Shown here piece by piece: positions 6,001 through 20,900 of a DNA stretch of 64,000 nucleotides. Position 1 is the stretch's first letter. The number at the start of each line of letters is the position of its first letter. Origin of the DNA: Maribacter zhoushanensis. GTDB lineage: Bacteria; Bacteroidota; Bacteroidia; Flavobacteriales; Flavobacteriaceae. A program made the position numbers and the translations under genes. The notes beneath the pieces were generated by a model. The model was not told where the DNA came from and ran no database searches. It saw only the letters and a program-made list of their open reading frames with translations. Location: positions 682,001-746,000 of the forward strand of contig NZ_JARKMR010000001.1 of assembly GCF_029350975.1 (NCBI RefSeq). The letters run 5' to 3'.

Positions 6001-7560
6001 CAGGTTGTTACGGTGGATCAGTACGATCCAGACTCAACACCAAATAACGATGATGGTGATCAAAGTGAGGATGATGAAGATAATGTTGAATTACGATTAC
6101 AATCTACCGATTTAGAAATTATAAATACAGTTGCCCCGGCTACCGGTAATCCTGGCGATGTATTGACCTTTACCGTTGAGGTGGTCAATAATGGAACCGA
6201 TGATGCTACCAATGTTGTTGTATCCAATATTGTACCTACTGGTTTTACCGTCCTCACTATTAATGATGGTGGATCGCAAACAGATGATGAAATTTTATGG
6301 ACGGTATTGAGTGTTCCTAACGGTACAACTACCACATTAACATTTGAAGCTTCAATTAATGTACCAACTAATAGTACAGATGAATATGTAAATACGGTAC
6401 AGATTGTTAACGTAGATCAGTTAGATCCAGATTCTACGCCTAATAATGATGATGGAGATCAAAGTGAAGATGATGAGGACAATGCTGAAATCGTTTTAAT
6501 TCCGGCAGATTTAAGTTTGGGTATTGCATTAAGTTCAGCATCTAATCCAGCTCCAAATTCGGGTGATACGGTGACTTTTGAACTGACCTTAACAAACGAC
6601 GGACCTGGTATTGCTACAAATGTTAGTATTGAAAACACCTTGCCAGTTGGGTATACATTAGGTACTGTAAATGATGGTGGTAGTGTTTCTGGAAATGTAA
6701 TTTCTTGGAATTTTTCCAGTGTGCCGGTAGGTACACAAGTAGTGACTTATGAGGTGACTTTAAATGCGCCAAATAATGTTGCGGATGAATATACCACTAT
6801 TGCACAGGTAATAGCATCTGATCAATTTGATCCAGATTCAAACCCTAATAACGATGATGGTAACCAGAGTGAAGATGATGAGGACAGTCATATGATCAAT
6901 GCACCAACGGTAGACTTAGAGATTGCCAAGATGGTAGACAAAGAAGAAACTTTCTTTGAAGATACCATTGTGTTTACAGTAACTGTTACCAATAATAGCA
7001 CTTATGAAGCTACAAATATAGGAGTGGAAGATGTGCTGCCCTCAGGTTATGAATTTGTATCTGCGACAGCTACTGATGGTGCCTATAGCGAAACAACTTC
7101 AACATGGGATATTCCTAGTATAGCAATTGGTGCAACGGCATCATTAGAAATGACAGTTTATGTTACTGATATTGATGATTATACCAATGTAGCTGAACTA
7201 ATCTATGTGGATCAAGTAGATCTTAATATAGATAATGATAGGGCAGAGGTAACACCAGTGGTTACCCAGGCACAATGCTTTACTGTATTCAACAAGTTTA
7301 CACCTAATAATGATGGTTTAAACGATGTGTTCTTTATTGAGTGCATAGAGAATTACCCAAATAACAATGTTAAGGTATTTAATAGATGGGGTAACCAAGT
7401 ATTTGAAATGGATAATTATGATAATACCTGGGATGGTACTTCTATGGGGAGAGCCACAATTAGCGCACCAGAGAAATTGCCCGTAGGTACGTATTTCTAT
7501 CTAATAGATTTCGGTGATGGTTCAGAACCAAAAACAGGTTGGTTGTACATAACAAGATAA
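1..7560 (+). CDS. Giant Ig-like/DUF11 repeat adhesin with T9SS type B C-terminal domain (5' partial)
   Basis: The reading frame is open from base 1, so the N-terminus lies outside the window; 2519 codons are visible. It reads as an exported surface protein of the SprB/gliding-associated adhesin type. About fifteen Ig-like modules of roughly 80 residues, each opening with AP(I/T)SGG(D/N)xxEC and containing WYDAATGG and TYYAES, run to about base 5080. Five copies of a different module (core TCAPDLLTYSVSVDV) are interspersed. A PKD-like stretch follows (about 5080-5290), then five DUF11-type modules (about 5296-7230), four of them ending in an acidic linker like DPDSTPNNDDGDQSEDDED. The last ~95 residues (FTPNNDGLNDVF, NRWGNQVFE, GTYFYLIDFGDG) match the gliding motility-associated C-terminal domain used as a type IX secretion signal. 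A PorP/SprF gene follows 15 bp downstream, the usual pairing. The ligand cannot be deduced. Confidence 0.93.
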   Translation, partial: AVGTITYYAESNDTVNGCPSVGRTAVTLTIQPAPVAPTSGGDITECEQDPIQTLTATATAPTGSTLVWYDAASGGNVVASPEWNSVGTEIYYAESQDDVTGCPSVTRTAVSLTIQPAPAAPTSGGDVTECEQNPIQTLTATATVPSGFTMTWYDAATGGNLVASPEWSAVGSVTYYAESQNNTSACISLSRTPVTLTIDAIPDAPISGGDQIECEANPTQTMTATATAPTGSTVVWYAAATGGSAIGSPTLNAVGTVTYYAESRTTSSGCISETRTAVTLTMNSNPTIAITPSSQTCSADLATYSVSVDVDRGTVTSTEGTVTDNGGNNWTIAGITSGNNITVTVTDGNSCAESISINAPNCACPTVNAPTSGGDQTVCEQDPIQTLTATATAPAGASVVWYDAASGGTMVASPTWNTVGSTTYYAESVDDVNGCTSTTRTAVNLTIQAAPAAPISGGDQAECETAPIQTLTATATCAAGNSIVWYDAATGGNVVATPEWSSVGTMTFYAESQDDATSCVSHSRTAVSLTIEPNPTAPISGGNQTECETSPIQTLTATATAPSGSTVIWYDAASNGSVITNPILDAVGTITYYAESEHTTTSCVSTSRTAVMLTIQDSPDITIATAATCAPDLLTYSVSVDVSEGTVTTTEGTVVDNGGNNWTISNITSGNDITLTVTAPNSCTQTLDVTAPDCACPVVDAPISGGDQTECEENPIQTLTATATPPAGATVVWYDAATGGNVVADPSLSATGTVTYYAESRDNVTNCVSGTRTEVVLTINATPTAPVSGGDITECETSPTQTLTATATAPAGSSIVWYDAATGGNVVASPILDTVGSVTYYAESEDNTSACPSFTRTAVNLTIQDTPDITIATAATCAPDLLTYSVSVDVSEGTVTSTEGTVVDNGGNNWTISNITSGNDITLTVTAPNSCAQTLDITAPDCACPVVDAPISGGNQTECEQNPIQTLTATATPPAGATVIWYDAATGGNVVADPSLSATGSTTYYAESRDNVTNCVSGTRTEVVLTINETPTAPISGGDITECETSPIQTLTATATAPAGSSVVWYDAATGGNVVASPILDAVGSVTYYAESESDTSACPSFTRTAVNLTIQDTPDITIATAATCAPDLLTYSVSVDVSEGTVTSTEGTVVDNGGNNWTISNISSGNDITLTVTAPNSCAQTLDITAPDCACPVVDAPISGGDQTECEENPIQTLTATATPPAGATVIWYDAVTGGTIVADPSLSATGSTTYYAESRDNVTNCVSSTRTAVILTIEAAPTAPTSGGDQVVCEQNPIQTLTATATAPVGSNVVWYDAATGGNVVASPILNAVGNITYYAESDNATSSCISLTRTAVSLTIEAAPTAPISGGDITECEASPIQTLTATATAPAGSSIIWYDAASGGNVITNPILDAVGSVTYYAESENTTSSCVSLSRTAVNLTIQDTPDITIATAATCAPDLLTYSVSVDVSEGTVTSTEGTVVDNGGNNWTISGITSGNNITLTVTAPNTCIQTMAVTAPDCACPVVDAPISGGNQTECEQNPIQTLTATATPPADATVVWYDAAIGGSIVTDPSLNTVGTISYFAESVQNVTNCISNTRTEVVLTIEETPPAPTSGGDQAECEQNPIQTLTATVSIPTGYSVVWYDAATGGNVVTDPTLNAVGSTTYYAEKVDDASSCTSFSRTPVDLTIYALPTVVANASVTTINAGEPVTLNGSGATSYIWDNGVTDGDTVYPLVTTTYTVVGTDGNTCENTDSVTITVNATSDIEIAHSVDNANPNVGDLVTFTLTATNNGPSDDTGGTIINSLLPAGYTYVSDTGSTANGIYDSATGNWTLPSLSNGASLTVEITATVNPPTGAVNEYLNIAQVTSATNYDADSVPNNDDGDQSEDDEAAASIVPQVADLEVTNTISQPSANPGDALTITVDVLNNGPDDVTNVSIENVVPVGFTVTGINNGGMQSGNTITWSGLTISNGTTETLTFNVDVNDPVNTPDEYLNTVQVVTVDQYDPDSTPNNDDGDQSEDDEDNVELRLQSTDLEIINTVAPATGNPGDVLTFTVEVVNNGTDDATNVVVSNIVPTGFTVLTINDGGSQTDDEILWTVLSVPNGTTTTLTFEASINVPTNSTDEYVNTVQIVNVDQLDPDSTPNNDDGDQSEDDEDNAEIVLIPADLSLGIALSSASNPAPNSGDTVTFELTLTNDGPGIATNVSIENTLPVGYTLGTVNDGGSVSGNVISWNFSSVPVGTQVVTYEVTLNAPNNVADEYTTIAQVIASDQFDPDSNPNNDDGNQSEDDEDSHMINAPTVDLEIAKMVDKEETFFEDTIVFTVTVTNNSTYEATNIGVEDVLPSGYEFVSATATDGAYSETTSTWDIPSIAIGATASLEMTVYVTDIDDYTNVAELIYVDQVDLNIDNDRAEVTPVVTQAQCFTVFNKFTPNNDGLNDVFFIECIENYPNNNVKVFNRWGNQVFEMDNYDNTWDGTSMGRATISAPEKLPVGTYFYLIDFGDGSEPKTGWLYITR
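100..5080 (+). repeat. Tandem coding repeats (Ig-like modules, ~240-250 bp) with a 744-bp higher-order period
   Basis: Repeats lie inside the adhesin gene. Ig-type modules begin near 105, 348, 612, 1107, 1347, 1608, 2100, 2352, 2844, 3096, 3588, 3840, 4092, 4584 and 4836. The interspersed TCAPDLLTYSVSV module begins near 1861, 2605, 3349 and 4345, with a divergent copy near 861. The spacing 1861-2605-3349 is exactly 744 bp twice; the next step is 996 bp, i.e. one extra Ig module. DNA identity between the 2605 and 3349 copies is visibly high, pointing to recent unequal recombination or conversion. Confidence 0.9.
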
Positions 7561-7575
7561 AATTATAAAATAGGT

Positions 7576-8499
7576 ATGAAGCTTAGCTTATACATAACGA
7601 TAATAATAGTTGCTTTAATAAGTACTACAAACGGATTCTCTCAGCAGGACCCTCAGTATACCCATTACAACTATAATACAATGACCGTTAATTCGGCATA
7701 TACAGGTTCTAGAGGTAACCTTGCAATTATCTCCTTATATCGAAATCAATGGGTGGGTGTTGAAGGTGCTCCAAAAACGCTGACGTTTGGTATTGATTCC
7801 CCAATTGGGAAATATGATGGTGTGGGACTTTCTATTGTACAAGATGAAATAGGACCTTCTTCAGAAACCTATATAGATGGTAATTATGCACACCAATTGG
7901 TCGTAAACCGTAAAGGCGATAAACTTGCCTTAGGATTAAAAGCCGGAGTACGATTTTTAAGTATTGATTGGAGTAAGGGGTTATACCGTGATGATGGGGA
8001 TATTTTTTTAAATGAAAATGTAAATGGAAAGCTCTTACCATCTATTGGGGCAGGTGTGTTTTATTATACTAGAAATGCCTACATAGGGCTATCTACGCCA
8101 AACATCTTGACCAACACCCATTATGATGAAATACAAGAGGCGGAATCTGTAGAGCGTGTACATTTATTCTTAATTGGGGGTTATGTATTCGATTTGAATC
8201 CGTTTTTAAAGTTTAAGCCTTCGTTCTTTGTGAAACATGTTGCAGGTGCCCCGCTTTCTGCAGATGTATCGGCAAACTTCTTAATGAACGAAAAACTGAC
8301 CCTTGGTGTAAATTATAGATGGGATGATAGTGTAAGTGCCCTTTTCGGATTACAGATTACACCACAGTTGAACATGGGGTATGCCTATGATTTTTCTACT
8401 ACGCAATTGACAGCATATAATTCTGGAACGCACGAAATCTTTTTAAGGTTCATGCTGAAATCTAGAGATAGAATAATTAAGTCGCCTAGATTCTTTTAA
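7576..8499 (+). CDS. PorP/SprF family type IX secretion system membrane protein
   Basis: 307 residues with an N-terminal signal peptide (ends near SQQDPQYTHYNYN). The opening QQDPQYTHYNYNTMTVNSAYTGSR-like pattern, followed by NQWVG..GAPKT and a series of predicted outer-membrane strands (GVFYYTRNAYIGLSTPNIL, FKPSFFVKHV), is characteristic of PorP/SprF proteins. These sit in the outer membrane and, by family knowledge, are needed for export or anchoring of the adjacent type B T9SS substrate. The ATG lies 15 bp after the adhesin stop codon, so the two are very likely co-transcribed and this protein probably serves that adhesin specifically. Length is normal for the family. Confidence 0.93.
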   Translation: MKLSLYITIIIVALISTTNGFSQQDPQYTHYNYNTMTVNSAYTGSRGNLAIISLYRNQWVGVEGAPKTLTFGIDSPIGKYDGVGLSIVQDEIGPSSETYIDGNYAHQLVVNRKGDKLALGLKAGVRFLSIDWSKGLYRDDGDIFLNENVNGKLLPSIGAGVFYYTRNAYIGLSTPNILTNTHYDEIQEAESVERVHLFLIGGYVFDLNPFLKFKPSFFVKHVAGAPLSADVSANFLMNEKLTLGVNYRWDDSVSALFGLQITPQLNMGYAYDFSTTQLTAYNSGTHEIFLRFMLKSRDRIIKSPRFF

Positions 8500-8512
8500 A
8501 AGGAAATATATA

Positions 8513-8569
8513 AAACTAAAAAAGCTCCCAATTTCTTGAGAGCTTTTGCGGTCTGGACGGGACTCGAAC
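8513..8569. repeat. Distal direct repeat (candidate att site) containing a tRNA-Asp 3'-end remnant and terminator
   Basis: This 57-bp stretch matches 16180-16237 with one substitution (C versus T at 8527) and one missing T. It contains the hairpin terminator and then bases 8549-8569, the last 21 nt (discriminator, acceptor strand and part of the T arm) of tRNA-Asp in minus orientation. Similarity stops abruptly after GACTCGAAC; the rest of the tRNA is absent. A full tRNA at one end and a 3' fragment at the other, in the same orientation, is the arrangement left by tRNA-targeting integration. Confidence 0.8.
8549..8569 (-). pseudogene. tRNA-Asp 3' fragment
   Basis: Twenty-one bases identical to the 3' end of the intact tRNA-Asp gene at 16217-16290, minus strand. 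It lacks the 5' acceptor strand, D arm, anticodon arm and most of the T arm, so it cannot make a tRNA. It is interpreted as the duplicated crossover end of an integration event. Confidence 0.8.
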
Positions 8570-8668
8570 TTTTATTCAAAACGCCCTGTATATAAGGTCT
8601 GTCAAGGGGGGTGGGCTCAACGAGTGGCTCACCTTTTAATAAAGTTTAACAATCAATTGTAAATATTA

Positions 8669-10633
8669 CTACTTACTTGGCTCAAGTATCAATGTGATTT
8701 TATTGAAGTCTGCCGCTGAATTGATTATTTCTCGATATTCCTCAAATATTGAAGGATGTATAATATTGGTTCTATAATATTCATCCGCTGTAATATTGAT
8801 AACATTTTCATCTCCTTCATAATATGACAGAAAAGAAAAGAGTTCCTCTCCATCCTTTTCATATTTCTTATCAATGTTCAAATCATTTAGATTTGCAATT
8901 GTATATCCTTGTGGCACACTGATATTAATAGTACGCAAATAACTTCTTGTGTGTTCATTTTCCAGAGGAAGAACGCGCTCTTTTTCTTGATACATCTGTA
9001 CTTGAGAACCGATTAGTTCGCCTATTTTAAACAGGTATTTATTTCCTGCTTTTTCAATAAATGCCTCGGATTTCAAATCGACTTCAAATTGTATTGGTTT
9101 TATTCCAAAAAGTTCTGGATTCTCATTGACTACCTGCGTTTTTTCAACCATTATGTTTTCATTCATTGTTTTTGCAAGACCTTCAAGAATGTTTTCCCTA
9201 TCCTCACCTATAATTAAATTCATATAAGGATGAATAGGCAAAGCATAATATCCAGTAAATGAACGCTTTAATTTTATATGACTTGAAGTAATATCTTCTT
9301 TTTCAAACTGAACATCGATTACCATTTTATCTATACTTTCATCAGCATCTAAGGGTTTGATATATTTTATCTTACCTATTCCTGATTTAAAATCCCCTAC
9401 ACTTACCTCTTTTATGAAAAGACCATAATTATCAGTTAAAAAGGCTGGAGGATAACCATACCTTGATTCCATATCCGTTGGGGATAGGTAGGCTTCAAAT
9501 TTGGGAAAATAAATTAAAAAATCCGTTAAAAAATTATGGGCTTCAAAAGCTTTGTCAAATTTCAATTTCGACCTATTGGACGTGATAACAATTTCATGTT
9601 CTATATCTAGGTTTCTGAGTAGTGCCACATAGAGTTTTATTAACCCAGTAGAGCTTGCTACTTTCTTTTCAAGAATATCTTCCAAATTCGTAAGGTTCTC
9701 ATTACCTGATTCTGAGGTGATAAAACTAGATTTAATGATATTATCAATACTTCTGATTTTAGACTCTAAATCATCACCGTCATTTTTTGCAGAGGCTACA
9801 AATTCTTGAATTTGGTTGGTAGCTTTTTTACTTGGTTCATCATAATAATAGTTATAAATATTTTGAGCTACGCTGCCGTAGGAAGAAAGGTCAGTTTTAT
9901 TAGTCTTTAGGTTTTCATCCAGTTTATAAACCAAAAAACCTCGAGAAGCAGCATATGGAGCTTGCTCTTCTTTCTCTAAACGGTCTAATTTTTTTAGACT
10001 TAAATTCCAATGCAATCTATCCTTTGAAAGTGTATCTTTTGCTACCTCGGGTAAACCATTGTAAGTTTTAAACTTAAAAACCAAGTTTGATGGAGCATAT
10101 AAATCAAAGTCAACATTCTTTTTGTAGAAATCTGACTGTAAGCGAAAAGCTGTTCCACTATAACTAGGTCTTGTTTTCTCCACATAAAAGTATTCAATAA
10201 CACTACCTTTTTCTACCCCCTCAAAAGCAAAATACTTGTAGTTTTTTCCAGTTTCTTCATCCTGGGCCGTGAGGATTTTTGATTCGTCCAAGTCTATTAC
10301 TTTTCCAGATTTGGTTATTACTCTGGCCTTACTTTTTAAGAGTATTGAATTAGATGAGTAGGGCAAATAAATTTTATTGTAATCTTCTATTCTGTCATTA
10401 CTATTCAACCAAAGTGCTTTGTGTTCTAAATAATGCTCTGTAAATTCATTTTCATTTGAATAAGCAAATTCGGCAACATACTTTTCTTTGAGAGCCATCA
10501 TAGGTTCTTCATTATCAATGTCTAAGATATATTGTGGTGATTCATCCCAATTATAGCTTAAAACAAAAAGATTGTCTTGACCATAAAATGTGTTTGACAA
10601 AACAACAACAATTAGAAAACAAAAATTTTTCAT
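8669..10633 (-). CDS. DUF3857/transglutaminase-fold protein lacking the catalytic cysteine
   Basis: 654 residues with a clear signal peptide (FCFLIVVVLSNTFYGQ), so exported to the periplasm or surface. The N-terminal half resembles DUF3857 (AKARVITKSGKVIDLDES, EGVEKGSVIEYFY) and the middle has the transglutaminase-like helix and strands. Aligned by eye with the upstream paralogue, the catalytic position (GDCKDNS there) is ASSTG here (residues 326-330), so Cys is replaced by Ser. The candidate His366 and Asp387 are retained. It is therefore probably a non-enzymatic paralogue, perhaps a partner or regulator of the upstream protein; that role is inference. The gene starts 6 bp after the stop of the 10640-12598 gene and is last in a three-gene operon inside the tRNA-Asp-bounded segment. 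Confidence 0.8.
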   Translation of the reverse strand: MKNFCFLIVVVLSNTFYGQDNLFVLSYNWDESPQYILDIDNEEPMMALKEKYVAEFAYSNENEFTEHYLEHKALWLNSNDRIEDYNKIYLPYSSNSILLKSKARVITKSGKVIDLDESKILTAQDEETGKNYKYFAFEGVEKGSVIEYFYVEKTRPSYSGTAFRLQSDFYKKNVDFDLYAPSNLVFKFKTYNGLPEVAKDTLSKDRLHWNLSLKKLDRLEKEEQAPYAASRGFLVYKLDENLKTNKTDLSSYGSVAQNIYNYYYDEPSKKATNQIQEFVASAKNDGDDLESKIRSIDNIIKSSFITSESGNENLTNLEDILEKKVASSTGLIKLYVALLRNLDIEHEIVITSNRSKLKFDKAFEAHNFLTDFLIYFPKFEAYLSPTDMESRYGYPPAFLTDNYGLFIKEVSVGDFKSGIGKIKYIKPLDADESIDKMVIDVQFEKEDITSSHIKLKRSFTGYYALPIHPYMNLIIGEDRENILEGLAKTMNENIMVEKTQVVNENPELFGIKPIQFEVDLKSEAFIEKAGNKYLFKIGELIGSQVQMYQEKERVLPLENEHTRSYLRTINISVPQGYTIANLNDLNIDKKYEKDGEELFSFLSYYEGDENVINITADEYYRTNIIHPSIFEEYREIINSAADFNKITLILEPSK

Positions 10634-10639
10634 TCTACT

Positions 10640-12598
10640 TTATTTTTTCTTTAATACCACCACTTCCTTGTATTGACGCTCTACCTTTTTCACAAGTTGA
10701 TTCACGACTTTTTGAGCCTCAGAATCAAAAACCAGAGCATTTAGTCGAAAGTTGTGTTTATATATAATTTGGTTTCCTTTTAATTTATAATAAATACTAC
10801 TATCAAAGTATTGACTTGTAATATCTACGCCTTCAGGCAAATAGTCAACTTCATAACCATCAGGAATATTTAGTACATAATGGTACTGAACACTGTCTAA
10901 ATAGTCGTGTTCAAGTGGTACTTGACGTTTTTTATCCGTTTTTATATTTGAAACGATAGTTTTGCTCAAATTCATATTAACATAGATTTCATCTCCTAAC
11001 ACTTTGACATAATTTGGAATATTAAAATCATAATCTACAATGAAGTCATTATCGTAACTATATTTATTCGTTTCCTGAAACTTATCAATTAGGAAGCTAT
11101 TGTTGCCCTTTCGAAAGACCGAGTTGTACAATTGAAGAAGTTCGGTCTTAGTTTCCTTTTTTTCTAGATTATAGAAAAAATCCATTTTTCCGTATCCTGA
11201 TAACTCGGACTTTGATTTTCCTTTTAGATTAGTTCCATCCAATTCGATAATGGCATTATCCTTATACCAGTTTTTTGAAGGGTCAATAATTGGAACTTTT
11301 TTAATCATAAAAGAATCTTGACCTACTGAAACTAAAGCTTCTTTTCCCTGAATGAATGAACTAGGTATTTCTATGGGGTTGTACCTGCCTGTTGCATCTA
11401 AGAAATAAGATTTTCCCTGATATTCATAATGTAAAATCATGTGATTATCTGCCGATGGTGTAGGAACGTCATTATAACTATAAGGAATACTTCTCGTGCC
11501 GATCCAAGTTAAGTTTCCTTCAATACCGGCGATATTGAGCATTTTCAGTAATAGGCTTGAGTTATCTTTACAATCGCCATACTTTTTATAAAACACCTCA
11601 TTAGCTTCTCTAGGCACAAAACCGCCTAAGGCATATTCAAAAGCTATATATTTTACGTTCTCTTGAGTCCAATAGTAAATGGCTCTGACTTTTTCCAACT
11701 CATTTTCCTTGTCTGCGATAAGGCTTTCAACAAGCTGAACCAGTTCTTTTGGTGGTATTTCTTTATTTAAATCTTTTACTAAAGAAAAATACCATTCGTA
11801 AAGGTTTGAGACATTTTCCAATAGTTTTATGGTCTCCCCATCTTGCTCATAAGAAACTATAATTGGAATAATATGGGGTAATATGTTTTTATAATCAGGA
11901 GCTTTGTCCTCATACTTAAATTCGTCTGTGTTTTTTATTTGCCAAGTATAAATGTTTTGTTTTCTCGTCTTTTTTTCCGTGAATTCAACCGAGATACCTT
12001 CCATATTGATTTTTTCAAATCGTAGATGTACATTTTTATCTGATACAATGGTGAATTTGTTATTTTCAATCGGATAAAAACTGCCAAAATAAAAAGCACT
12101 TAAAAAACGTGGATTTTTAATCGTTTGCTTATAATTCAGTTTTGTTTTTGCACCTTTCCCAAGGCTGGGAAAAATAAAGTTAATAGACTTAACATCATCA
12201 TAGAATGAACCATCCAATTCATCCTTATCCTTAAAATCAGAAACTTTTAACTCTTCATATTTGTTATCCTTAACAATAAATGATGATGCCTCTATTTTAT
12301 CCAATTCATAGAAAGAAGAATAATTCAAAGATTGCTTCGCATCATACTTGGCACTCTCATAAAGGTATAAGTCTTCTTCAATAGACTCTTTAGATATCAC
12401 AAATTGACCTCTTTCAATACCAATTTTCAAGACGGTTTCTTGGTTTAACCTAACAGACTGGGAATTTGGATATTGTTCCTTGTATTTGTCATAATTTAAT
12501 GCAGTTTGAGCATAAGAAATAGACCCAATTAGTAATAATAAAAGTGATGTTATCCTCAAATTCTTTTTATTTAGACGTGGATGAAATAATGTCTCCAT
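10640..12598 (-). CDS. Exported DUF3857 and transglutaminase-domain protein
   Basis: About 652 residues. I chose the ATG at 12598; a TTG seven codons upstream (12619) and a TTG just before the hydrophobic stretch are alternatives. A signal peptide is visible (LRITSLLLLLIGSISYAQ). DUF3857 occupies roughly residues 50-240. The transglutaminase-like core follows, with YGDCKDNSSLLL (Cys343), HMILHYEY (His386) and YFLDATGRYNP (Asp401), a complete Cys-His-Asp triad. Family members act on peptide amide bonds (cross-linking, deamidation or proteolysis); the substrate here is unknown. The start overlaps the end of the upstream TPR/MORN gene by 32 bp, which implies translational coupling. Confidence 0.88.
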   Translation of the reverse strand: METLFHPRLNKKNLRITSLLLLLIGSISYAQTALNYDKYKEQYPNSQSVRLNQETVLKIGIERGQFVISKESIEEDLYLYESAKYDAKQSLNYSSFYELDKIEASSFIVKDNKYEELKVSDFKDKDELDGSFYDDVKSINFIFPSLGKGAKTKLNYKQTIKNPRFLSAFYFGSFYPIENNKFTIVSDKNVHLRFEKINMEGISVEFTEKKTRKQNIYTWQIKNTDEFKYEDKAPDYKNILPHIIPIIVSYEQDGETIKLLENVSNLYEWYFSLVKDLNKEIPPKELVQLVESLIADKENELEKVRAIYYWTQENVKYIAFEYALGGFVPREANEVFYKKYGDCKDNSSLLLKMLNIAGIEGNLTWIGTRSIPYSYNDVPTPSADNHMILHYEYQGKSYFLDATGRYNPIEIPSSFIQGKEALVSVGQDSFMIKKVPIIDPSKNWYKDNAIIELDGTNLKGKSKSELSGYGKMDFFYNLEKKETKTELLQLYNSVFRKGNNSFLIDKFQETNKYSYDNDFIVDYDFNIPNYVKVLGDEIYVNMNLSKTIVSNIKTDKKRQVPLEHDYLDSVQYHYVLNIPDGYEVDYLPEGVDITSQYFDSSIYYKLKGNQIIYKHNFRLNALVFDSEAQKVVNQLVKKVERQYKEVVVLKKK

Positions 12599-15500
12599 TA
12601 AGGTAGGTTTCTTCAACAATTAATTTCCCGTCTTTATCATATTTCTTGGTGCTGCCCTCTTTTACATTATGCAAGTAAGTTTCTTCCTTTTTCAAATTCC
12701 TATTCTCGAAATACTCTTTAACAATACCGTTTAGATTACCCAATTGATAAGATTGTTCCTTTCGTATTGAGCCATTAGGGAAATACTCTGTTCTTTTACC
12801 ATTAAACTCGCCATCTATGTACGACACTTTCTCTAACAATTGTCCAGAGTAATAATACTCTTCAAAGTTATTTATGAGGTACCCATTTTTATATTCCATC
12901 TCCCTAGAAATAGAACCGTTGTTATAATAAGTTGTGATTTTACCTGATTCATTATCAATTGGAATAATTGGTACTTCCTTGGCGTTTGTATCTAGATAAC
13001 TATACCCTATTAAACGACCGTGCTCATAAAACCTAACCAATTGTAATTCTCCGGTTGGACTGAAATCTTCTCTTCTTCCATGTCTTTGGTCATCATTATA
13101 TTGTCCTTTAGATTGGACTTTTCCATTTTTATGATAGTGAATAACCTCTTTTTGTAATTTGCCTGATTGATAGTTGTATTCGCTTTCTAAAGTTCCATCT
13201 TCGTAATAATAAATATAATCGCCTTGCAACTCTCCATAAACATAGTTTGCTTTTGTTTCGATATTTCCATTATCATGGTACCAAATTAATTCTCCATGTA
13301 ATTTACCATTTAAATATTGACCTTGCATTACTTTTCTTCCATAAAAATCAGAAAAAGAGAATGGCCCATGTCTAACACCATTAACATAGGTTAATTTAGT
13401 ACTTGGTTCGTTACTACTGTGCTGATAGACCAATTCATAATTCTCGTTTTCATTCTCGTAGTTAATGGAGTATGAAATATTACTACCGTTTACATCATAA
13501 AAAATGTCTTTAATCTGATTACCATAATTATAAATGCTTGCTTGTAATTTAACCCCTTTACCCGAAAAAAAAAGTTGTTCCCCATGCAGCGACCCTTTAT
13601 GGTAAAAGTTGATTTCCGTAATATTGCCCTTTGGATTATATGACCTCCATTCTCCATGCATATTGTCTTTCTTGTACCAACCTTGCCTATTAATTTTACC
13701 GTTTTTGTGATAGTTCACATAGTATCCTATTAAACTATCATTTTTGTATTTCGAAATAGACTTTAACTTTTGGTTTGGATAATATATTTTATATTCCCCT
13801 TGCAACTTGTCTTCTTCATATATCCCTTCATCTGTCAAAATCCCATGGGGAGAATAATATTTCCATTTACCTTTCTTTCCTCCTTTAATATCATATTGAC
13901 CTTCAGATTTTATTTTACCATGAGGTGAATAGCCTTTATAATAAAACTCACCTCCTTTTTTTCTATTTTCTTCGATTAAACTGCCTTCTTTGTCAAAGTA
14001 CTTATAGGCAATGAACTCTCCTTTACGATACTCAAAAATATAGTGTAATTTTCCATCGGTATCATAATATTTATACTCACCTTCGATTTCTCCATCGTCG
14101 TTATAGTTAAAATCACTTTCTAACTTGCCATTACTATAAAAAGTTTGCCACCTTCCTACATAATCACCTTTAGAAGTCTTTCCAATCTCCTTCGGAGAAC
14201 CGTTAGGATAGAATAACTTGTAGGAGCCATCTACAAATCCATCTTTACTGTTTAAATCTGTATCCAAAGCCCCGTTTAAATAATATTTTATCTCTTGCCC
14301 ATTGGCCTTTCCGTTTTTAAAATTTATTTTAGAACTTATCTGTCCCGTGGGGAAGTATTCAATATATTCTTCTTTTATATCACCATTAATATAATCGGCT
14401 TGAGCTTTCAATAGCTCGGCACCTACATCATGATATGCTTTATAAAGACCGTTTAATTTTCCATCTTTAAAGTATTTTTTTTGCTGTAATGCTCCTTTTT
14501 CATTGAAGTATAAATATGCTCCATTTAAATTACCGCTGATATAATTAGCGACAATTTTTTGTCTGCCATTATCGTAAAACTCAATATTACTGCCATTAAG
14601 TTTTCCATCTAAGTATTGAGCAGTTTCTCGAATTTTTCCTTGATTGTTATAAAACGTCCAATCTCCGCTTCTGTCTCCATTTGAATTAAATTCACCTTTT
14701 GCTGTAAGCCTACCTTCTTTAGTAAATAATTCCCACGGTCCAAGAATAACATCTCCTTTCGTTTCTCCAATACCTTGAAGATACCCGTCATCAAAATAAT
14801 AGGTCAAGTTTTCTTCAATGCTATTTTGCTCAATAGTATTCTTTTTAACAATTTCAGCCCATTTTTTTTTAGATAAGTCAAAAAACTCAGTAATCTCAGA
14901 CTTTTTTTTCTCAATAACTTTCTTATAGGTTTCGTTCTCGATAGAATATGAAAGTGTATAACTAAAAACATCAAAATATCCGTTATCATTTATCCATTTA
15001 TAAAATGGAACAAATTTCGTGTCCCAAAATCCCCCGTTCCCAGAAAAGTTTTTTATCGATTCTAAAAGGGCATGATTTTGTCTGGTTAATGCAATGTCAA
15101 TTTCGTTGCCTGTATCATACTTTTCGTTCAGGGCAATACGATTATTGATAATTAAATCAATCTCTTCAAATGATTCATCATCATCTGAAATTTTAAGGTT
15201 AGGATTTTTAGAATTATCATTCTTGCTTTTGACAATATTGTTCAAAGATTTTAAGGTATTAAATGCATTGCCAGCATCGGGCTCAAGTAACAAATACATA
15301 TTGTAAGACATTAAGGCTTGACTCATTTTTTCTTGCCTGTAACAGATATTACCCAATTGTAAATAGGAGTTTTTATAAAATGGATCAAGAAGAATTGCCA
15401 TTTGATATGCTGCTATTGCCTCCTCTATCTCTCCAATTGCTTCCAAAGAAACCCCTTTGTTGTACCATAAGGTTTTGTTTTGTGAAAATCGTTTAAGCCC

Positions 15501-15872
15501 TTCTGTGCAAGTATTGAGAGCTTCTTGATTTTTATCTTGTCCCAATAGTACAGCCACTTTATTTATATAAAATGAACTGTGTAAATCATAGCATTCAGTA
15601 TCGAGGCCTTCATCTATTACTTCTATGGCCTTATCATACTTTTTAAGAGTCATTAAATAGTAAGACTTCGATACCAGTACCGTACAATACGTAGAATCAT
15701 TTTTGTTAATTTGATTGAGATGGTCTATTGCTTGTTCATATTCCTTCTTTTCTATAGTCTCTTTCAATTTTTCCTTTACTGAATCATAATCTATGAACGG
15801 AATTTTTTCTTGTGCGTTACTAAGGAGGCTAAATAGTAAAATTGGTAGTAGGAGTAGGTTTTTTTTCTTCAT
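12567..15872 (-). CDS. Exported TPR plus MORN/YwqK-repeat protein
   Basis: 1101 residues with a signal peptide (NLLLLPILLFSLLSNAQ). Residues about 25-210 form TPR-like helical repeats (YEQAIDHLNQINKND, ALNTCTEGLKRFSQN, GEIEEAIAAYQMAILLDPF). A linker follows, then from about residue 355 to the end come some two dozen short beta repeats of the MORN/YwqK type (pattern G.W..Y...G.l......dG.l.G....Y..nG). YwqK-family proteins are annotated as antitoxins in some databases, but this length and the signal peptide fit an exported scaffold or binding protein better. It is first in the operon and overlaps the transglutaminase gene. The base composition looks AT-rich (many Lys, Asn, Ile, Tyr codons). Function unknown. 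Confidence 0.85.
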   Translation of the reverse strand: MKKKNLLLLPILLFSLLSNAQEKIPFIDYDSVKEKLKETIEKKEYEQAIDHLNQINKNDSTYCTVLVSKSYYLMTLKKYDKAIEVIDEGLDTECYDLHSSFYINKVAVLLGQDKNQEALNTCTEGLKRFSQNKTLWYNKGVSLEAIGEIEEAIAAYQMAILLDPFYKNSYLQLGNICYRQEKMSQALMSYNMYLLLEPDAGNAFNTLKSLNNIVKSKNDNSKNPNLKISDDDESFEEIDLIINNRIALNEKYDTGNEIDIALTRQNHALLESIKNFSGNGGFWDTKFVPFYKWINDNGYFDVFSYTLSYSIENETYKKVIEKKKSEITEFFDLSKKKWAEIVKKNTIEQNSIEENLTYYFDDGYLQGIGETKGDVILGPWELFTKEGRLTAKGEFNSNGDRSGDWTFYNNQGKIRETAQYLDGKLNGSNIEFYDNGRQKIVANYISGNLNGAYLYFNEKGALQQKKYFKDGKLNGLYKAYHDVGAELLKAQADYINGDIKEEYIEYFPTGQISSKINFKNGKANGQEIKYYLNGALDTDLNSKDGFVDGSYKLFYPNGSPKEIGKTSKGDYVGRWQTFYSNGKLESDFNYNDDGEIEGEYKYYDTDGKLHYIFEYRKGEFIAYKYFDKEGSLIEENRKKGGEFYYKGYSPHGKIKSEGQYDIKGGKKGKWKYYSPHGILTDEGIYEEDKLQGEYKIYYPNQKLKSISKYKNDSLIGYYVNYHKNGKINRQGWYKKDNMHGEWRSYNPKGNITEINFYHKGSLHGEQLFFSGKGVKLQASIYNYGNQIKDIFYDVNGSNISYSINYENENENYELVYQHSSNEPSTKLTYVNGVRHGPFSFSDFYGRKVMQGQYLNGKLHGELIWYHDNGNIETKANYVYGELQGDYIYYYEDGTLESEYNYQSGKLQKEVIHYHKNGKVQSKGQYNDDQRHGRREDFSPTGELQLVRFYEHGRLIGYSYLDTNAKEVPIIPIDNESGKITTYYNNGSISREMEYKNGYLINNFEEYYYSGQLLEKVSYIDGEFNGKRTEYFPNGSIRKEQSYQLGNLNGIVKEYFENRNLKKEETYLHNVKEGSTKKYDKDGKLIVEETYLNGDIISSTSK

Positions 15873-15947
15873 TTCTCAAATATAAAAAAGCAAGAGGTGT
15901 TTCCGTAATTTTTGTAAGTAATTTCGATATTTAGTATTTAAAATCGA

Positions 15948-16160
15948 TTATAGTATTTTAAGAATTTTCTCTTTTATAAGTGCTTCTTTTTTAGAATCTA
16001 ATTCTTCTGCATAAACGAGTTTCCAGGGTCCTTTGTTTTTGGTGTATGTTGTTTTACCTTGATTATGTTGTTCCAGTCGCATGGTATAATCTGTAGAATA
16101 TCCTTTGTAGTAGACATCGTGCGAAGCAGAATAAATAATGTATACGTAGTGATTGGTCAT
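15948..16160 (-). CDS. Short GIY-YIG nuclease-family protein, C-terminally truncated
   Basis: 70 residues. The N-terminus carries the GIY-YIG fold signature (YVYIIYSASHDVYYKGYS, then RLEQHNQGKTTYTKNKGPW and KKEALIKEK). Proteins of this UPF0213-like group normally continue some 10-20 residues after the KEK helix; here the frame stops at KILKIL. The Tyr-Lys-Gly variant of the second half-motif also occurs in Bacteroidota homologues. The gene starts 20 bp from the direct repeat next to tRNA-Asp, at the inner edge of the candidate island. It may be a decayed remnant or a functional short version; activity is uncertain. Confidence 0.65.
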   Translation of the reverse strand: MTNHYVYIIYSASHDVYYKGYSTDYTMRLEQHNQGKTTYTKNKGPWKLVYAEELDSKKEALIKEKILKIL

Positions 16161-16179
16161 AAAACAGAAAAAAGGTTGT

Positions 16180-16237
16180 AAACTAAAAAAGCTCTCAATT
16201 TCTTGAGAGCTTTTTGCGGTCTGGACGGGACTCGAAC
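16180..16237. repeat. Proximal direct repeat (candidate att site) overlapping tRNA-Asp 3' end
   Basis: 58 bp matching 8513-8569 with one substitution and one extra T. It includes the transcription terminator of tRNA-Asp and the last 21 nt of the intact tRNA. Together with the distal copy it bounds about 7.6 kb. Confidence 0.8.
16186..16215 (-). terminator. Terminator of tRNA-Asp
   Basis: Inverted repeat GCTCTCAA / TTGAGAGC with a 4-nt loop, flanked by A-runs on one side and T-runs on the other, so it can act on both strands. It lies directly after the tRNA 3' end on the minus strand. A nearly identical copy is present at about 8518-8547. Confidence 0.8.
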
Positions 16238-16290
16238 CCGCGACCCCCTGCGTGACAGGCAGGTATTCTAACCAACTGAACTACCAGACC
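16217..16290 (-). tRNA. tRNA-Asp (GTC)
   Basis: The minus strand folds into a standard 74-nt cloverleaf: acceptor GGTCTGG / CCAGACC with discriminator G, D arm with AGTTCAGTTGGTTAGA, anticodon arm with loop CTGTCAC (anticodon GTC), and T arm CGGGTTCGAGTCCCG. No CCA is encoded. The 3' end overlaps the direct repeat described above. Confidence 0.97.
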
Positions 16291-16362: not shown

Positions 16363-17292
16363 CTAGAGAAATTTATTTCTTTCTACGAGAAAAGTATTGA
16401 GCACTGTTGAGAAATCTCGGTGTATATCTATGTCTACATATTTGATTTTATATTGGGCGCATTTCATTTTTATGTCAGATAAATAAGCTGTAATACGTTC
16501 ATTGTAAGCTTCTTTAATATTATCGGCATATAAGTCTATATGTTCGCCGGTTTCTACGTCGACAAATCTTTTGGGCGTATTTTCAAAATTGAAGTTTAAT
16601 TCACGATTTTTATCCATCGGATGAAAAAGTACAACATCGTGCTTATTATATTTCAAATGACGGAGCGCTTCGAACAATTCATCATCATTTTTTTCGGTTT
16701 GAAACATGTCGGTAAACAGGAAAATGAGACTTCTACGTTTAATATTTTCTGCAATTTGATGTAAATAGGTATAGGTATTTGTCTCTTTTGGCGGATTTTT
16801 AGCCATGCCAACGGCACTTAATTGTGCCAATAACATTTGAAAATGACGCTCGCTACCTTTTTCTGGAGCATAATAATTATAGGCATCAGAATAAATACTC
16901 AAACCAACAGCATCACGCTGCCTTTTAAGCACGTTCATCAGCGCAGCGATTGCTAAGACGCTAAATCCTATTTTATTTAAGGAATCGATGCTTAAATTAT
17001 CGACCTGTGGATAATACATAGACGCAGAGTTGTCCAATATCATATGGCACCTTAAATTGGTTTCCTCTTCATACCGTTTGGTGTAGAGTTTGTCTGTCTT
17101 GGCAAAAAGCTTCCAGTCTATATGTTTGGTGCTTTCACCATTGTTATAGATTTTATGTTCGGCAAATTCAGCAGAAAACCCATGAAATGGACTCCTGTGT
17201 ATACCGCTAATGAACCCTTCTACAACTTGATTGGCAAGAAGCTCTAGGTTAGAGAATAATGATGATTTGTTTAATTCTGATTGTAGATTCAC
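16363..17292 (-). CDS. DUF58 domain-containing protein
   Basis: 309 residues, no membrane segment. The family signature is visible: FISGIHRSPFHGFSAEFAEH, then Y..G...KHIDWKLFAKT, the acidic RYEEETNL, and a von Willebrand A-like metal site LDNSASM. By family knowledge these cytosolic proteins often work next to MoxR ATPases and other vWA proteins in Bacteroidota; no MoxR gene is in this window. The gene lies downstream of trxA in the same direction, separated from it by a strong terminator at 17356-17385, so it probably has its own promoter. Confidence 0.88.
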   Translation of the reverse strand: MNLQSELNKSSLFSNLELLANQVVEGFISGIHRSPFHGFSAEFAEHKIYNNGESTKHIDWKLFAKTDKLYTKRYEEETNLRCHMILDNSASMYYPQVDNLSIDSLNKIGFSVLAIAALMNVLKRQRDAVGLSIYSDAYNYYAPEKGSERHFQMLLAQLSAVGMAKNPPKETNTYTYLHQIAENIKRRSLIFLFTDMFQTEKNDDELFEALRHLKYNKHDVVLFHPMDKNRELNFNFENTPKRFVDVETGEHIDLYADNIKEAYNERITAYLSDIKMKCAQYKIKYVDIDIHRDFSTVLNTFLVERNKFL

Positions 17293-17355
17293 AATTCTAA
17301 AGATACTAAAGACGGTTTAACTTTAAGGATGGTAATAATTAAAATTGTCCCAAAT

Positions 17356-17385
17356 AAAAAGAGCTGGCATATGCCAGCTCTTTTT
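17356..17385 (-). terminator. trxA terminator
   Basis: A 30-bp perfect palindrome centred on GAGCTGGCATATGCCAGCTC, with A5 on one side and T5 on the other. It lies 24 bp beyond the trxA stop and is symmetrical, so it may also act on the opposite strand. Confidence 0.88.
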
Positions 17386-17409
17386 ATATTTTATATAAGT
17401 CTATGAAGC

Positions 17410-17727
17410 TTACAAAGCTGCGTCTATAGCATCTGTATAAACTTTCTTAGGTGATACACCTACTTGTCTGCTTACAATTTCACCACCTTTGAATACTAAT
17501 ACAGTAGGTATGTTACGTACCCCGTATTTAGCGGCGAATTCTTGATTTGCATCTACATCAACTTTACCAACAACAGCTTTGCCGTCATATTCAGTACTAA
17601 CTTCGTCAATGATAGGACCTACCATACGACAAGGACCGCACCATGCTGCCCAAAAATCTACTACTACTGGTTTATCGCTTTTTAATACTACCTCGTCAAA
17701 AGTAGCATCTGTTATTTCTAATGCCAT
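17410..17727 (-). CDS. trxA: Thioredoxin
   Basis: 105 residues, cytosolic, the usual thioredoxin length. The active site WCGPC is at residues 29-33, and the cis-proline region NIPTVLVFKGGE and the buried Asp (VVDFWAAW) are in place. It reduces protein disulfides using thioredoxin reductase. It lies downstream of dnaE on the same strand with a 210-bp gap. A TAAATTTG box lies upstream of the ATG and may be the -7 element of its own promoter. Confidence 0.97.
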   Translation of the reverse strand: MALEITDATFDEVVLKSDKPVVVDFWAAWCGPCRMVGPIIDEVSTEYDGKAVVGKVDVDANQEFAAKYGVRNIPTVLVFKGGEIVSRQVGVSPKKVYTDAIDAAL

Positions 17728-17937
17728 CTTAATTTCTTTTATTGATTATGCAAATTTAGTCAATTATTCTTCTGTTTCCTTACAGCTTGGCAATTCGTTT
17801 TGCCTATTCAGGTATCAAGCTAATTTATATATTTATATAGTTCTTTTCTTACATAGAGTCGTTGGTCATAAAATACAGTTAGCGATTCTAATATGTGAAT
17901 TTTACTATTTCAATAGTCAAATATGATACTCGTTGCT

Positions 17938-20900
17938 TTAATTCAGTTTAAAATGAACGTCTTGTTTCTCTAAAAGTTGTAATAACTCGGTCGAAATATT
18001 TACTTTTTGTCGCCTGCTGTTTAAAGTGACCTTAATTTTTTCTTCCATTTCATAAACGATAAAATTAACCGGATGTTCCCCTACGTGGTCTATGAAGGTG
18101 TCTTTGAGGGTGCGTACCTTCTCTTCTTTTAAATCGGCAATGTTTAGTTTTATCGTAAGCTTTCTGGCATAGGTTTCCATAACTTCTTGTAATAACATAA
18201 AGCTATTGAACTGCATTCTTGGGTCTCCTTTTTTACCCGTGTCCTTATTCATCCATCCATCACGAACAAATAATTTTACATAGGCAAAAGAGTTGATCAT
18301 TAAGAAGTGCCTGAATTTTAAATATTCTTCTCCAAAAATCCGAAATTCATAAGAGTCTGTGTAATCTTCCATAGTAAAAGCGGCCCAGCCTTTTCCATTT
18401 TTAGAAACTCTATGTTGTACATCTGTAATTACGGCGGCAAAGGTGAGTTCTCTATTTACATAGGTAGGCAAATCATTTACACAAGCTATGTTGGCATTAC
18501 AGAATGCTTTTACCTCTGTTTTGAAATCATCTAGAGGGTGACCTGATATATAAATACCAACCACTTCTTTTTCTCTGCGCAGTTTCTCCATAGTTCCCCA
18601 TTCCTCACATGGTGGTACCACAGGTTCTGGTATTTGCACTTCGCTGGCGTCACCAAATAAACTTACTTGACTTGAGTTCTCGCTTTCTTGGAATTTAGCG
18701 CCATACTTTATGGTCTTTTCCAGAAAGGTTACTCCGTCACCTTCATTATGAAAATACTGTGCTCTGTGAGTGTCTCCAAAAGAATCGAACCCACCTGCCA
18801 CAGCTAAACTTTCAAATGCTTTTTTATTGGCTGCGCGAAGTTCTATACGCTTTGCAAAATCGAAAACGGATTTATAGGGTCCGTCTTCTTTTCTGTTCTC
18901 AACGATGGTTTCTACTGCACCACGACCAACACCTTTTACGGCTCCCATGCCAAAACGTACGGCGCCGGCATCGTTCACTGCAAACTTGTAGTAAGATTCG
19001 TTTACGTCTGGACCCAATACTTCTAAGCCCATACGTTTACATTCCTCCATGAAGAAGGTAACTTGCTTAATATCGTTCATATTGTTGCTCAATACCGCAG
19101 CCATATACTCGGCAGGGTAGTGGGCTTTGCAATATGCGGTTTGGTAGGCAATCCAAGCATAGCAAGTAGAGTGAGATTTGTTGAAAGCATAGGCAGCGAA
19201 TGCTTCCCAGTCTTTCCAGATTTTCTCCAGTTTATCAACCGCATGTCCTTTAGCAGAAGCTTGTTCAATGAACTTTGGCTTCATTTTATCAAGTACGTGC
19301 TTTTGCTTTTTACCCATTGCCTTACGCAAGACATCGGCTTCACCCTTTGTAAAGTCCGCCAACTTTTGCGAAAGGAGCATCACTTGCTCTTGGTATACCG
19401 TAATACCGTAGGTTTCCGCTAAGTACTCCTCACAGGCATCTAAGTCATATACAATTTCTTCAGTACCGTGTTTACGGGCAATGAAACTTGGTATGTATTC
19501 CATTGGGCCGGGACGGTACAAGGCGTTCATGGCAATAAGATCCGCAAAAACCGTTGGTTTAAGCGATCTCATGTGCTTTTGCATACCGGGAGATTCATAT
19601 TGGAATACACCAACTGTTTCTCCTCTTTGAAAGAGTTCGTATGTTTTTACATCATCTAGCGGAAAATTCTCTGGGTCTAGCTCAACACCATGTTTTGCTT
19701 TTACGATCTTAACGGTGTCCTTTATCAAGGTCAGCGTTTTCAATCCCAAGAAATCCATCTTCAACAATCCTGCATCTTCCACGACCGAGTTGTCAAACTG
19801 GGTACAGTACATTTCGGAATCCTTGGCTAGGGCAACAGGAACGAACTTGGTAATATCATCTGGAGTAATAATGACCCCACAGGCATGAATACCGGTATTA
19901 CGAACGGAACCTTCTAAAACATATGCTTGGTTCAAAGTTTCCGATTCTGGACCATCGCCCTCGGAAATCGCTAAAAGCTCGTTTATTTTTTCTAAATCTT
20001 CTGATCTAAACTTTGAGCGTAAGACCTTTTCATCGACTCCAATTATCTTTTTTAGCTTAGACATATCGGGTATCAACTTTGCCATGCGATCAGAATCTTG
20101 CAGAGGCAAATCTAAAGCACGTGCCGTATCTCTAATAGCAGATTTGGCGGCCATGGTACCATACGTGATAATCTGTGCCACTTGGTTAGATCCGTACTTG
20201 TCAATTACATAATCCATTACACGACCACGCCCTTCATCATCAAAGTCAATATCAATATCGGGCATACTTACACGATCCGGATTTAGGAAACGCTCAAAAA
20301 GTAGGTCGTACTTAATAGGGTCTAGATTCGTAATCCATAAACAATAGGCTACGGCAGAACCTGCTGCGGATCCACGACCAGGACCAACGGATACATCCAT
20401 GTCTCGCGCTGCTCTAATGAAATCTTCCACAATCAAGAAATAACCAGGGTACCCTGTTTTTTCAATTACTTTAAGCTCAAAATCTAGCCTTTCATCAATT
20501 GCAGGAGTAATTTCCCCATATCTCTTTTTGGCGCCTTCATAGGTAATATGGCGTAGAAATTTATTTTCACCACGCTTACCACCGTCCAGTTTATCTTCCT
20601 CAAATTGAAACTCTTCAGGAATATTAAAGGCAGGTAACAGTACATCACGTGCCAAAGTAAAGGTCTCTACCTTGTCCACGATTTCTTGAATGTTGATGAT
20701 GGCTTCAGGAATATCCTTAAAAAGCTCTTTCATCTCATCAGATGACTTAAAATAGTATTCTTGGTTGGGCAGCCCGTAACGATACCCGCGACCACGACCT
20801 ATTGGTGTAGCCTGTTTTTCACCATCTTTTACACAAAGAAGAATATCGTGCGCATGTGCATTTTCTTTCTCTACATAATAGGTGTTGTTGGTAGCAACCA

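Follow-up and report, generated by a model that had tools for sequence, protein, structure and literature searches.

In Bacteroidota, integrative and mobilizable elements (IMEs) and integrative and conjugative elements (ICEs) have been known to integrate at the 3' ends of tRNA genes through a tyrosine integrase, as NBU1 does at tRNA-Leu, and decayed islands at tRNA genes are already known as IMEs and as cis-mobilizable elements (CIMEs), the latter being decayed elements that keep both attachment ends, attL and attR (accessible part of PMC5704250). In the accessible part of PMC13096335, SegB of phages T4 and T6 is described as a free-standing GIY-YIG homing endonuclease of a tRNA region. Here, we analysed a stretch of 64,000 nucleotides (nt) of Maribacter zhoushanensis (contig NZ_JARKMR010000001.1, positions 682,001 to 746,000), referred to as the window, in which a three-gene cargo and a short GIY-YIG gene lie between a tRNA-Asp gene and a second copy of its 3' end (Table 1). 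The segment from 8513 to ~15957 is probably the right-hand remnant of a tyrosine-integrase element at a tRNA-Asp 3' end, whose cargo was fused by a second event to the GIY-YIG gene; as part of the same explanation, the GIY-YIG gene would itself be a relic of a tRNA-specific cassette family. Genomes are numbered with G (G000 is the window's own) and loci with L.

A tRNA-Asp 3' end and terminator repeated beyond the cargo

The repeat is direct. Positions 8513-8547 and 16180-16214 were identical at 34 of 35 nt, positions 8544-8569 and 16212-16237 at 26/26 nt, and the one-base offset between the two alignments gives one mismatch and one gap overall, exactly as the original prediction for this stretch had described. 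Of its further statement that the copy holds the terminator and the last 21 nt of the tRNA, the terminator stood, but the tRNA part is 22 nt long, and this 22-nt core is identical at tRNA-Asp and in the 8513-8569 copy. That the intact tRNA is found at one end only was also confirmed, since tRNA-Asp (16216-16290, minus strand) was the sole tRNA detected by ARAGORN in the window. When 8450-8620 was searched against the whole 4.26-Mb genome, three matches were obtained at E <= 0.001: the query region, the end of tRNA-Asp (97%), and 39 bp at C10:184784 (83%). The alternative that the copy is a common dispersed terminator, which had been raised with the prediction, was thus ruled out.

The DNA next to the copy resembles the arm of elements integrated at tRNA-Asp elsewhere in the genus. 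With the attR arm of G020 as a query against 36 genus genomes, G019 was matched at 84% (E 5e-22) and the window at 73% (E 3e-9), and the next listed match reached only E 0.005. In G020, a protein of 418 amino acids (aa) with Arm-DNA-bind_5, Phage_int_SAM_5 and Phage_integrase domains adjoins tRNA-Asp. On the copy-bearing contig, ~18 kb inward, this genome also encodes a BfmA/BtgA mobilisation protein (NCBIfam match, E 8e-31). Since the arm matches the G020 and G019 elements, and G020 has both an integrase and BfmA/BtgA, 8513-8651 most likely represents, on this homology, the right attachment end of an element that was integrative and probably mobilisable. The tRNA-targeted integration of the original prediction is supported by the arm.

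With the tRNA-Asp end as a query, further copies of it were found in at least a dozen of the 36 genus genomes, and several of these copies share a contig with the tRNA and lie 10-60 kb downstream of it. A tyrosine integrase adjoins tRNA-Asp or its copy in G035, G014, G018, G007, G013, G023 and G019, as in G020. In G014 (L067/L068) and G035 (L039/L040), identical-looking arm DNA is present at both ends of a tRNA-Asp integrase element, L067 and L039 being the tRNA side and L068 and L040 the attachment copies; this element type differs from that of the window.

A resident GIY-YIG gene broken at the edge of the island

The relatives of the window GIY-YIG gene in G025 encode proteins of 87-89 aa with the same start. 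The window gene follows its relatives to codon ~68 and then runs into other DNA (by eye), and its C-terminal part is gone. Residues Y7, Y18, G20, R28 and E64, which we take to be the catalytic residues of GIY-YIG, are invariant in 13 aligned relatives and are retained in the truncated copy. From the cargo side, the DNA upstream of the MORN gene is common to the window and G024, another cargo-bearing genome of the genus, up to about 15933 (BLAST).

In G027 and G032, tRNA-Asp is followed by a terminator, by GIY-YIG genes (three and one, respectively) and by PorP/SprF, with no MORN genes. Because these genomes have the GIY-YIG gene behind tRNA-Asp without the MORN island, the gene is regarded as resident: judged from these loci, it is part of the older tRNA-Asp locus and not of the island. 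Island cargo, as another origin of the gene, was ruled out by the same island-free loci. The island had been predicted to reach the tRNA; instead, the resident gene lies between them and is truncated where the island begins. Accordingly, among the genes that had been listed as enclosed, the TPR/MORN protein and the two DUF3857 proteins make up the cargo of the island, but the truncated GIY-YIG belongs to the resident locus. An empty site, with the PorP/SprF end directly behind the tRNA-Asp terminator, had also been proposed for relatives. PorP is indeed located behind tRNA-Asp in G032 and G027, but with one or three GIY units in between, and no bare tRNA-terminator-PorP site was seen among the 27 genus loci that were read around tRNA-Asp (of 36 genomes). 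The DUF58 gene adjoins tRNA-Asp in 27/27 of these loci.

The GC content of 8570-15957 was 31.8%, which was lower than that of every 7.4-kb window of the right flank (34.7-38.3%, in 500-nt steps) and than that of the left flank (41.7%); the predicted AT-richness of the enclosed genes relative to their neighbours therefore held. By Pfam, the enclosed proteins are MORN_2/TPR, DUF3857 with Transglut_core, DUF3857, and GIY-YIG. No integration or transfer gene was recognised among these four, either by Pfam or by an integrase hidden Markov model (HMM) built from 7 integrases of tRNA-Asp islands and one module locus.

The cargo module and its distribution

From sequence, with signal-like N-termini seen by eye, the module is taken as a set of a secreted enzyme, a pseudo-enzyme and a repeat protein. 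The transglutaminase triad of Cys, His and Asp is kept by the second gene in 75/75 sequences; in the third gene, the triad columns hold Cys in 0/73, His in 1/73 and Asp in 4/73. The start of the second gene was set at the ATG at 12595, the longest open reading frame (ORF) beginning with TTG at 12619. An envelope-modifying role of the cargo is proposed only tentatively. Anti-phage defence as the role of the cargo was rejected, as no PADLOC model matched the three cargo genes or the GIY-YIG gene at E <= 0.01. A plasmid or viral origin of the cargo was rejected, since no plasmid match was obtained at E <= 1e-20 and IMG/VR gave a single weak match, 32% over part of the MORN repeats. NCBIfam gave matches below cut-off for MORN and none for the other genes. 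Solved structures matching the MORN protein were mostly TPR proteins, plus two SET7/9 chains, and the search returned none matching the DUF3857/transglutaminase protein. In the open-licence PMC literature, DUF3857, transglutaminase and MORN turned up one listed study, on cilia.

The cargo is present in 2/36 genus genomes, and a third, G021, gave only a partial MORN match (31%, E 2e-23). In the family sample, the MORN gene was found at E <= 1e-60 in 20/397 genomes (the window's own counted) and 20/237 genera. A named collection yielded 77 module loci, with all three genes detected in 72; four of the five incomplete loci stop at a contig end, and L170 is without a detected third gene. A tRNA gene was found near the module in 17/77 loci (ARAGORN), upstream in 6 and downstream in 11, and its 3' end faces the module in 17/17; eleven of these tRNAs lie within 1.5 kb. 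Furthermore, L130 and L165 carry a lone tRNA 3' fragment facing the module, T-arm-like matches outside L130, L165 and L182 having been judged chance by eye. The remaining 58/77 loci have no tRNA and no recognised 3' fragment of one. An integrase was found in two, L130 and L159. In L130 (Maribacter algarum, 17198-18853), the module is followed by a tRNA-Arg-like 3' end and terminator facing it, and then by the integrase, as if several elements had stacked up at a single tRNA. The G024 module is flanked by tRNA-Ala on one side and by 23 nt repeating the tRNA-Ala 3' end on the other, and no integrase was found with it.

When 78 MORN proteins were placed in a tree, the window grouped with Allomuricauda amphidinii (local support 0.99), and G024, of the same genus, fell outside a clade of 6 with support 1.0. 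Since the tree puts G024 apart from the window, the two modules would most simply have been acquired separately by these two members of the genus. The repeated presence of the module at tRNA 3' ends suggests a mobile cargo of Flavobacteriaceae.

Origin of the island

Four observations, namely the repeat, an arm homologous to that of an integrase-bearing element, the broken GIY-YIG gene and the patchy cargo, can be brought together as follows. A tyrosine integrase would have recombined an integrative element into a tRNA-Asp 3' end. Deletion or recombination would have taken away attL, the integrase and any transfer genes; the remnant would retain attR (8513-8651) and the three-gene cargo, and the cargo side would have become fused to codon ~68 of the older GIY-YIG gene behind tRNA-Asp. 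We infer the order of these events, the tRNA-Asp copy that was targeted, and the loss of mobility. Several observations weigh against such a remnant. No window ORF, of at least 120 aa and then of at least 60 aa, was matched by the integrase HMM, an absence that had been predicted. The link of the window to the element family consists of the ~82-bp arm and the core, with attL and integrase absent. The ends of the G020 element are on different contigs, and its unity is assumed. G001 has a similar arm by eye and motif that the G020-arm search missed, and its tRNA-Asp-to-copy interval holds core-like genes, named by eye. Moreover, a GIY-YIG gene between tRNA and cargo is not expected from simple integration and requires a second event; the tRNA side carries its own terminator and GIY-YIG gene, with attL not retained. 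A clear far-side tRNA repeat was found in only 1/17 tRNA-adjacent module loci (G024; 5-10 kb of far flank searched), and, seen from the tRNA, the cargo of G000 is turned the other way from that of G024.

Which tRNA-Asp copy was the target can be varied within the same explanation. Integration into a second copy, the part-tRNA of a GIY unit, followed by a single deletion would turn a G032-like locus into the order tRNA-terminator-GIY-element-attR-terminator-PorP with one integration and one deletion. This variant is unlikely, since the right half of attR equals the 3' end of the real tRNA-Asp, whereas part-tRNAs are altered after GTTCGAGT, and strand exchange would be required near CCAGACCGC. 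An integrase-less satellite that still works, as an island mobilisable in cis or in trans, with the 22-nt cores at tRNA-Asp and 8513-8569 used for excision by the integrases of other elements, would account for the identical core of the direct repeat, for the same cargo between tRNA-Ala repeats in G024 without a detected integrase, and for a cargo that is found beside several tRNA kinds, whose 3' ends face it in every tRNA-bearing locus. Nevertheless, the attL arm is absent, a truncated resident gene occupies the tRNA side, the cargo is reversed in G024, the far repeat was found in 1 of the 17 tRNA-adjacent loci, and 58 of the 77 module loci lack any recognised tRNA or tRNA fragment, so that we consider it improbable. 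The satellite-like island of the original prediction was therefore not upheld; with attL missing, a decayed remnant is favoured. Slightly less probable still is that the GIY-YIG cassette process, which leaves tRNA-Asp part-copies and terminators, made the 8513-8569 copy with no integrase involved. G027 and G032 do hold such copies or terminators between tRNA-Asp and PorP. However, those part-copies have other DNA inside the tRNA part, whereas the window copy is a plain tRNA 3' end, and its neighbouring DNA matches the arm of an integrase element.

Small GIY-YIG genes are sorted by tRNA kind

In the genus, 13 GIY-YIG genes of the tRNA-Asp lineage were found in 8/36 genomes, directly behind tRNA-Asp in six and behind an attachment copy in G014 and G033; G034 and G021 have GIY-YIG fragments directly behind tRNA-Asp. 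The other genus GIY-YIG genes from the same search, at nine loci, are beside tRNA-Arg, -Phe or -Ala in 9/9. In the window's genome, two of eight GIY-domain genes are at a tRNA and six are not. A second small GIY-YIG gene of the window (60825-61115, minus strand; 96 aa; Pfam 5.8e-17) has no tRNA in its locus and was not matched by the tRNA-Asp-type query at E 1e-8. At C12:12283-12483 of the same genome (L224), a GIY-YIG gene precedes tRNA-Ala, and 5' pieces of tRNA-Ala are found beyond the gene on the opposite side.

In the family, 56 loci were read and GIY-YIG was recognised in 55 (52 distinct). A tRNA was present within 500 nt in 33 distinct loci, on the same strand in 33/33; the 19 others, several at contig ends, are without such a tRNA. 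The phylum, which is taken as Bacteroidota because of the organism names in the collection of module loci, gave a GIY-YIG match in 62/99 sampled genomes. Among 29 best loci (one per genome, the window's own apart), a tRNA was within 250 nt in 26, on the same strand in 26/26, in a set that is biased because the profile was made from 13 GIY-YIG genes, all tRNA-adjacent, and only best loci were taken. As a control, 3/562 small ORFs of module loci were within 250 nt of a tRNA. In G208, which has 21 GIY-YIG matches in its genome, eight of them stand in tandem ~365 bp apart (C34:6982-9772).

On a tree of 45 GIY-YIG proteins with 10 tRNA kinds (from 65 loci given, only those whose tRNA lies within 450 nt being used, and with several closely related proteins of a single genus among them), the tRNA label changes 11 times; 2000 label shuffles gave a mean of 27 changes and a minimum of 22. 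Such sorting would be expected from target-specific homing genes; fewer changes would also result if each lineage had simply descended with one tRNA gene.

Cassette anatomy and a proposal of homing

A tRNA lies within 500 nt in 73/96 GIY-YIG loci given. On the far side of the gene, the same tRNA was matched again (BLAST, E up to 0.05, at most 230 nt). With the tRNA upstream (45 loci), the best far-side match was to its 3' part in 40, to another part in 3, and absent in 2; with the tRNA downstream (28 loci), it was to the 5' part in 26, a longer piece in 1, and another part in 1. In profiles from 66 of the 73 rows, tRNA coverage in the upstream layout was 0.45 at positions 21-25, dipped to 0.18 at 36-40, and was 0.68-0.78 from 46 on; in the downstream layout, it was 0.78-0.85 at 1-20, fell to 0.10 at 36-40, and stayed low. 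Because coverage is lowest at 36-40, the anticodon arm is poorly kept in both layouts. In examples read by eye, hairpins replace the anticodon arm and tandem units of ~300-400 bp occur; hairpins in the part-tRNAs of other genera, and C-terminal motif differences between GIY-YIG lineages, were likewise noted by eye only. The perfect TCTCGGCT hairpin occurs 6 times in a 0.83-Mb genus sample, five times in part-tRNAs and once near a tRNA-Leu, and by these positions the hairpins of the tRNA-Asp part-copies were rejected as dispersed repeats for the genus sample. In L225 (G033, minus strand, ~1007-1241), tRNA-Ala is followed by two tandem tRNA-Ala-like copies, in which the anticodon arm is replaced by a TCCCGAAAGCATTCGGGA hairpin, and then by another GIY-YIG gene. 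G025 and G004, with GIY units, share their downstream flank at tRNA-Asp with G031, which has none, and gain and loss were not told apart; as a second pair, G005/G015 and G014 gave no clear alignment beyond the terminator.

With somewhat more confidence than doubt, we propose that Bacteroidota carry widespread tRNA-specific GIY-YIG homing cassettes, each of which would invade one tRNA kind at the anticodon-arm region, with the full tRNA on one side and, on the other, a part-tRNA that has lost its anticodon arm or has a hairpin in its place. Tandem arrays would be possible, the window would hold a truncated tRNA-Asp member, and the sites would be shared with integrase islands. The GIY-YIG protein would cut the anticodon-arm part of its cognate tRNA gene, and repair would copy the cassette in and leave the part-tRNA over. 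We infer this nuclease action and the spread of the cassettes from their anatomy; by analogy, the process is most likely cut-and-repair homing as for SegB in T-even phages. The main difficulty, which counts against homing, is that a full tRNA gene persists next to the cassette, where it would be expected to be cut as well. As a rival, GIY-YIG might be a tRNA-directed ribonuclease with a tRNA-like decoy, but the part-gene duplications would then be unexplained.

Features of the locus

Table 1. Features at the tRNA-Asp locus of the window (positions in the window)
Feature	Position	Strand	Basis
PorP/SprF, left flank; behind the tRNA-Asp/GIY locus in G027 and G032	7576..8499	+	Pfam, relatives' loci
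Putative attR: copy of tRNA-Asp 3' end and terminator	8513..8569	-	Repeat comparison, whole-genome search
Putative element-side attR arm, homologous to G020 and G019 tRNA-Asp elements	8570..8651	-	BLAST-type search
Cargo gene 3: DUF3857 protein without triad (pseudo-enzyme by sequence)	8669..10633	-	Pfam, alignment
Cargo gene 2: DUF3857 and transglutaminase-like, Cys/His/Asp triad	10640..12595	-	Pfam, alignment
Cargo gene 1: TPR and MORN_2 repeat protein, 1101 aa	12567..15872	-	Pfam; signal-peptide-like start by eye
Truncated GIY-YIG gene, 70 aa, tRNA-Asp lineage, resident locus	15948..16160	-	Pfam, relatives
Junction: homology to relatives' GIY-YIG genes ends, other DNA begins	15950..15965	.	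By eye
Repeat copy at the tRNA: tRNA-Asp 3' end (22 nt) and terminator	16180..16237	-	Repeat comparison
tRNA-Asp (gtc), intact, putative target gene	16216..16290	-	ARAGORN
DUF58 protein, right flank	16363..17292	-	Pfam, relatives' loci

PorP/SprF is adjoined by a gene for a repeat-rich protein of 2454 aa (196-7560, plus strand), of surface or gliding type by eye.

Comparison with known systems

Taken alone, the island would be a decayed integrative element, which is a known kind. The GIY-YIG side would matter more, if true. Throughout a phylum, small nuclease genes that are sorted by tRNA kind and accompanied by mirror-image part-tRNAs would amount to a chromosomal selfish element that lives in tRNA genes; the cassettes could account for some of the partial tRNA calls and of the tandem tRNA-like repeats, and the question would be raised of why the nuclease spares the full tRNA gene that remains. 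Among the papers listed from open-licence PMC, judged mostly by titles and the starts of abstracts, none was found to describe chromosomal, tRNA-sorted GIY-YIG/part-tRNA cassettes, and they look like undescribed tRNA-gene homing cassettes.

Among solved structures, two UPF0213 GIY-YIG chains, PDB 1zg2 and 1ywl, were matched by sequence (E 8.5e-10 and 8.8e-6), and they are alike in having a single small GIY-YIG domain. To our knowledge, UPF0213 proteins have no tRNA link. The island agrees with IMEs and ICEs in the tRNA 3' end as target, the direct repeats and the intact tRNA, and G020, with the same arm, has an integrase and BfmA; the window copy differs in being without an integrase, a mobilisation gene and attL. 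Compared with a CIME, the window is alike in its lost integration and transfer genes, its kept cargo and its kept attR, but attL is not kept, and G024 fits better. In contrast to SegB, the GIY-YIG genes described here, known from sequence alone, are chromosomal, encode a single domain of ~80-95 aa, form several tRNA-specific lineages and have a far-side part-tRNA. What they share with SegB is a free-standing GIY-YIG gene beside tRNA genes, and there, in the accessible part of PMC13096335, tandem tRNA-segB repeats arise.

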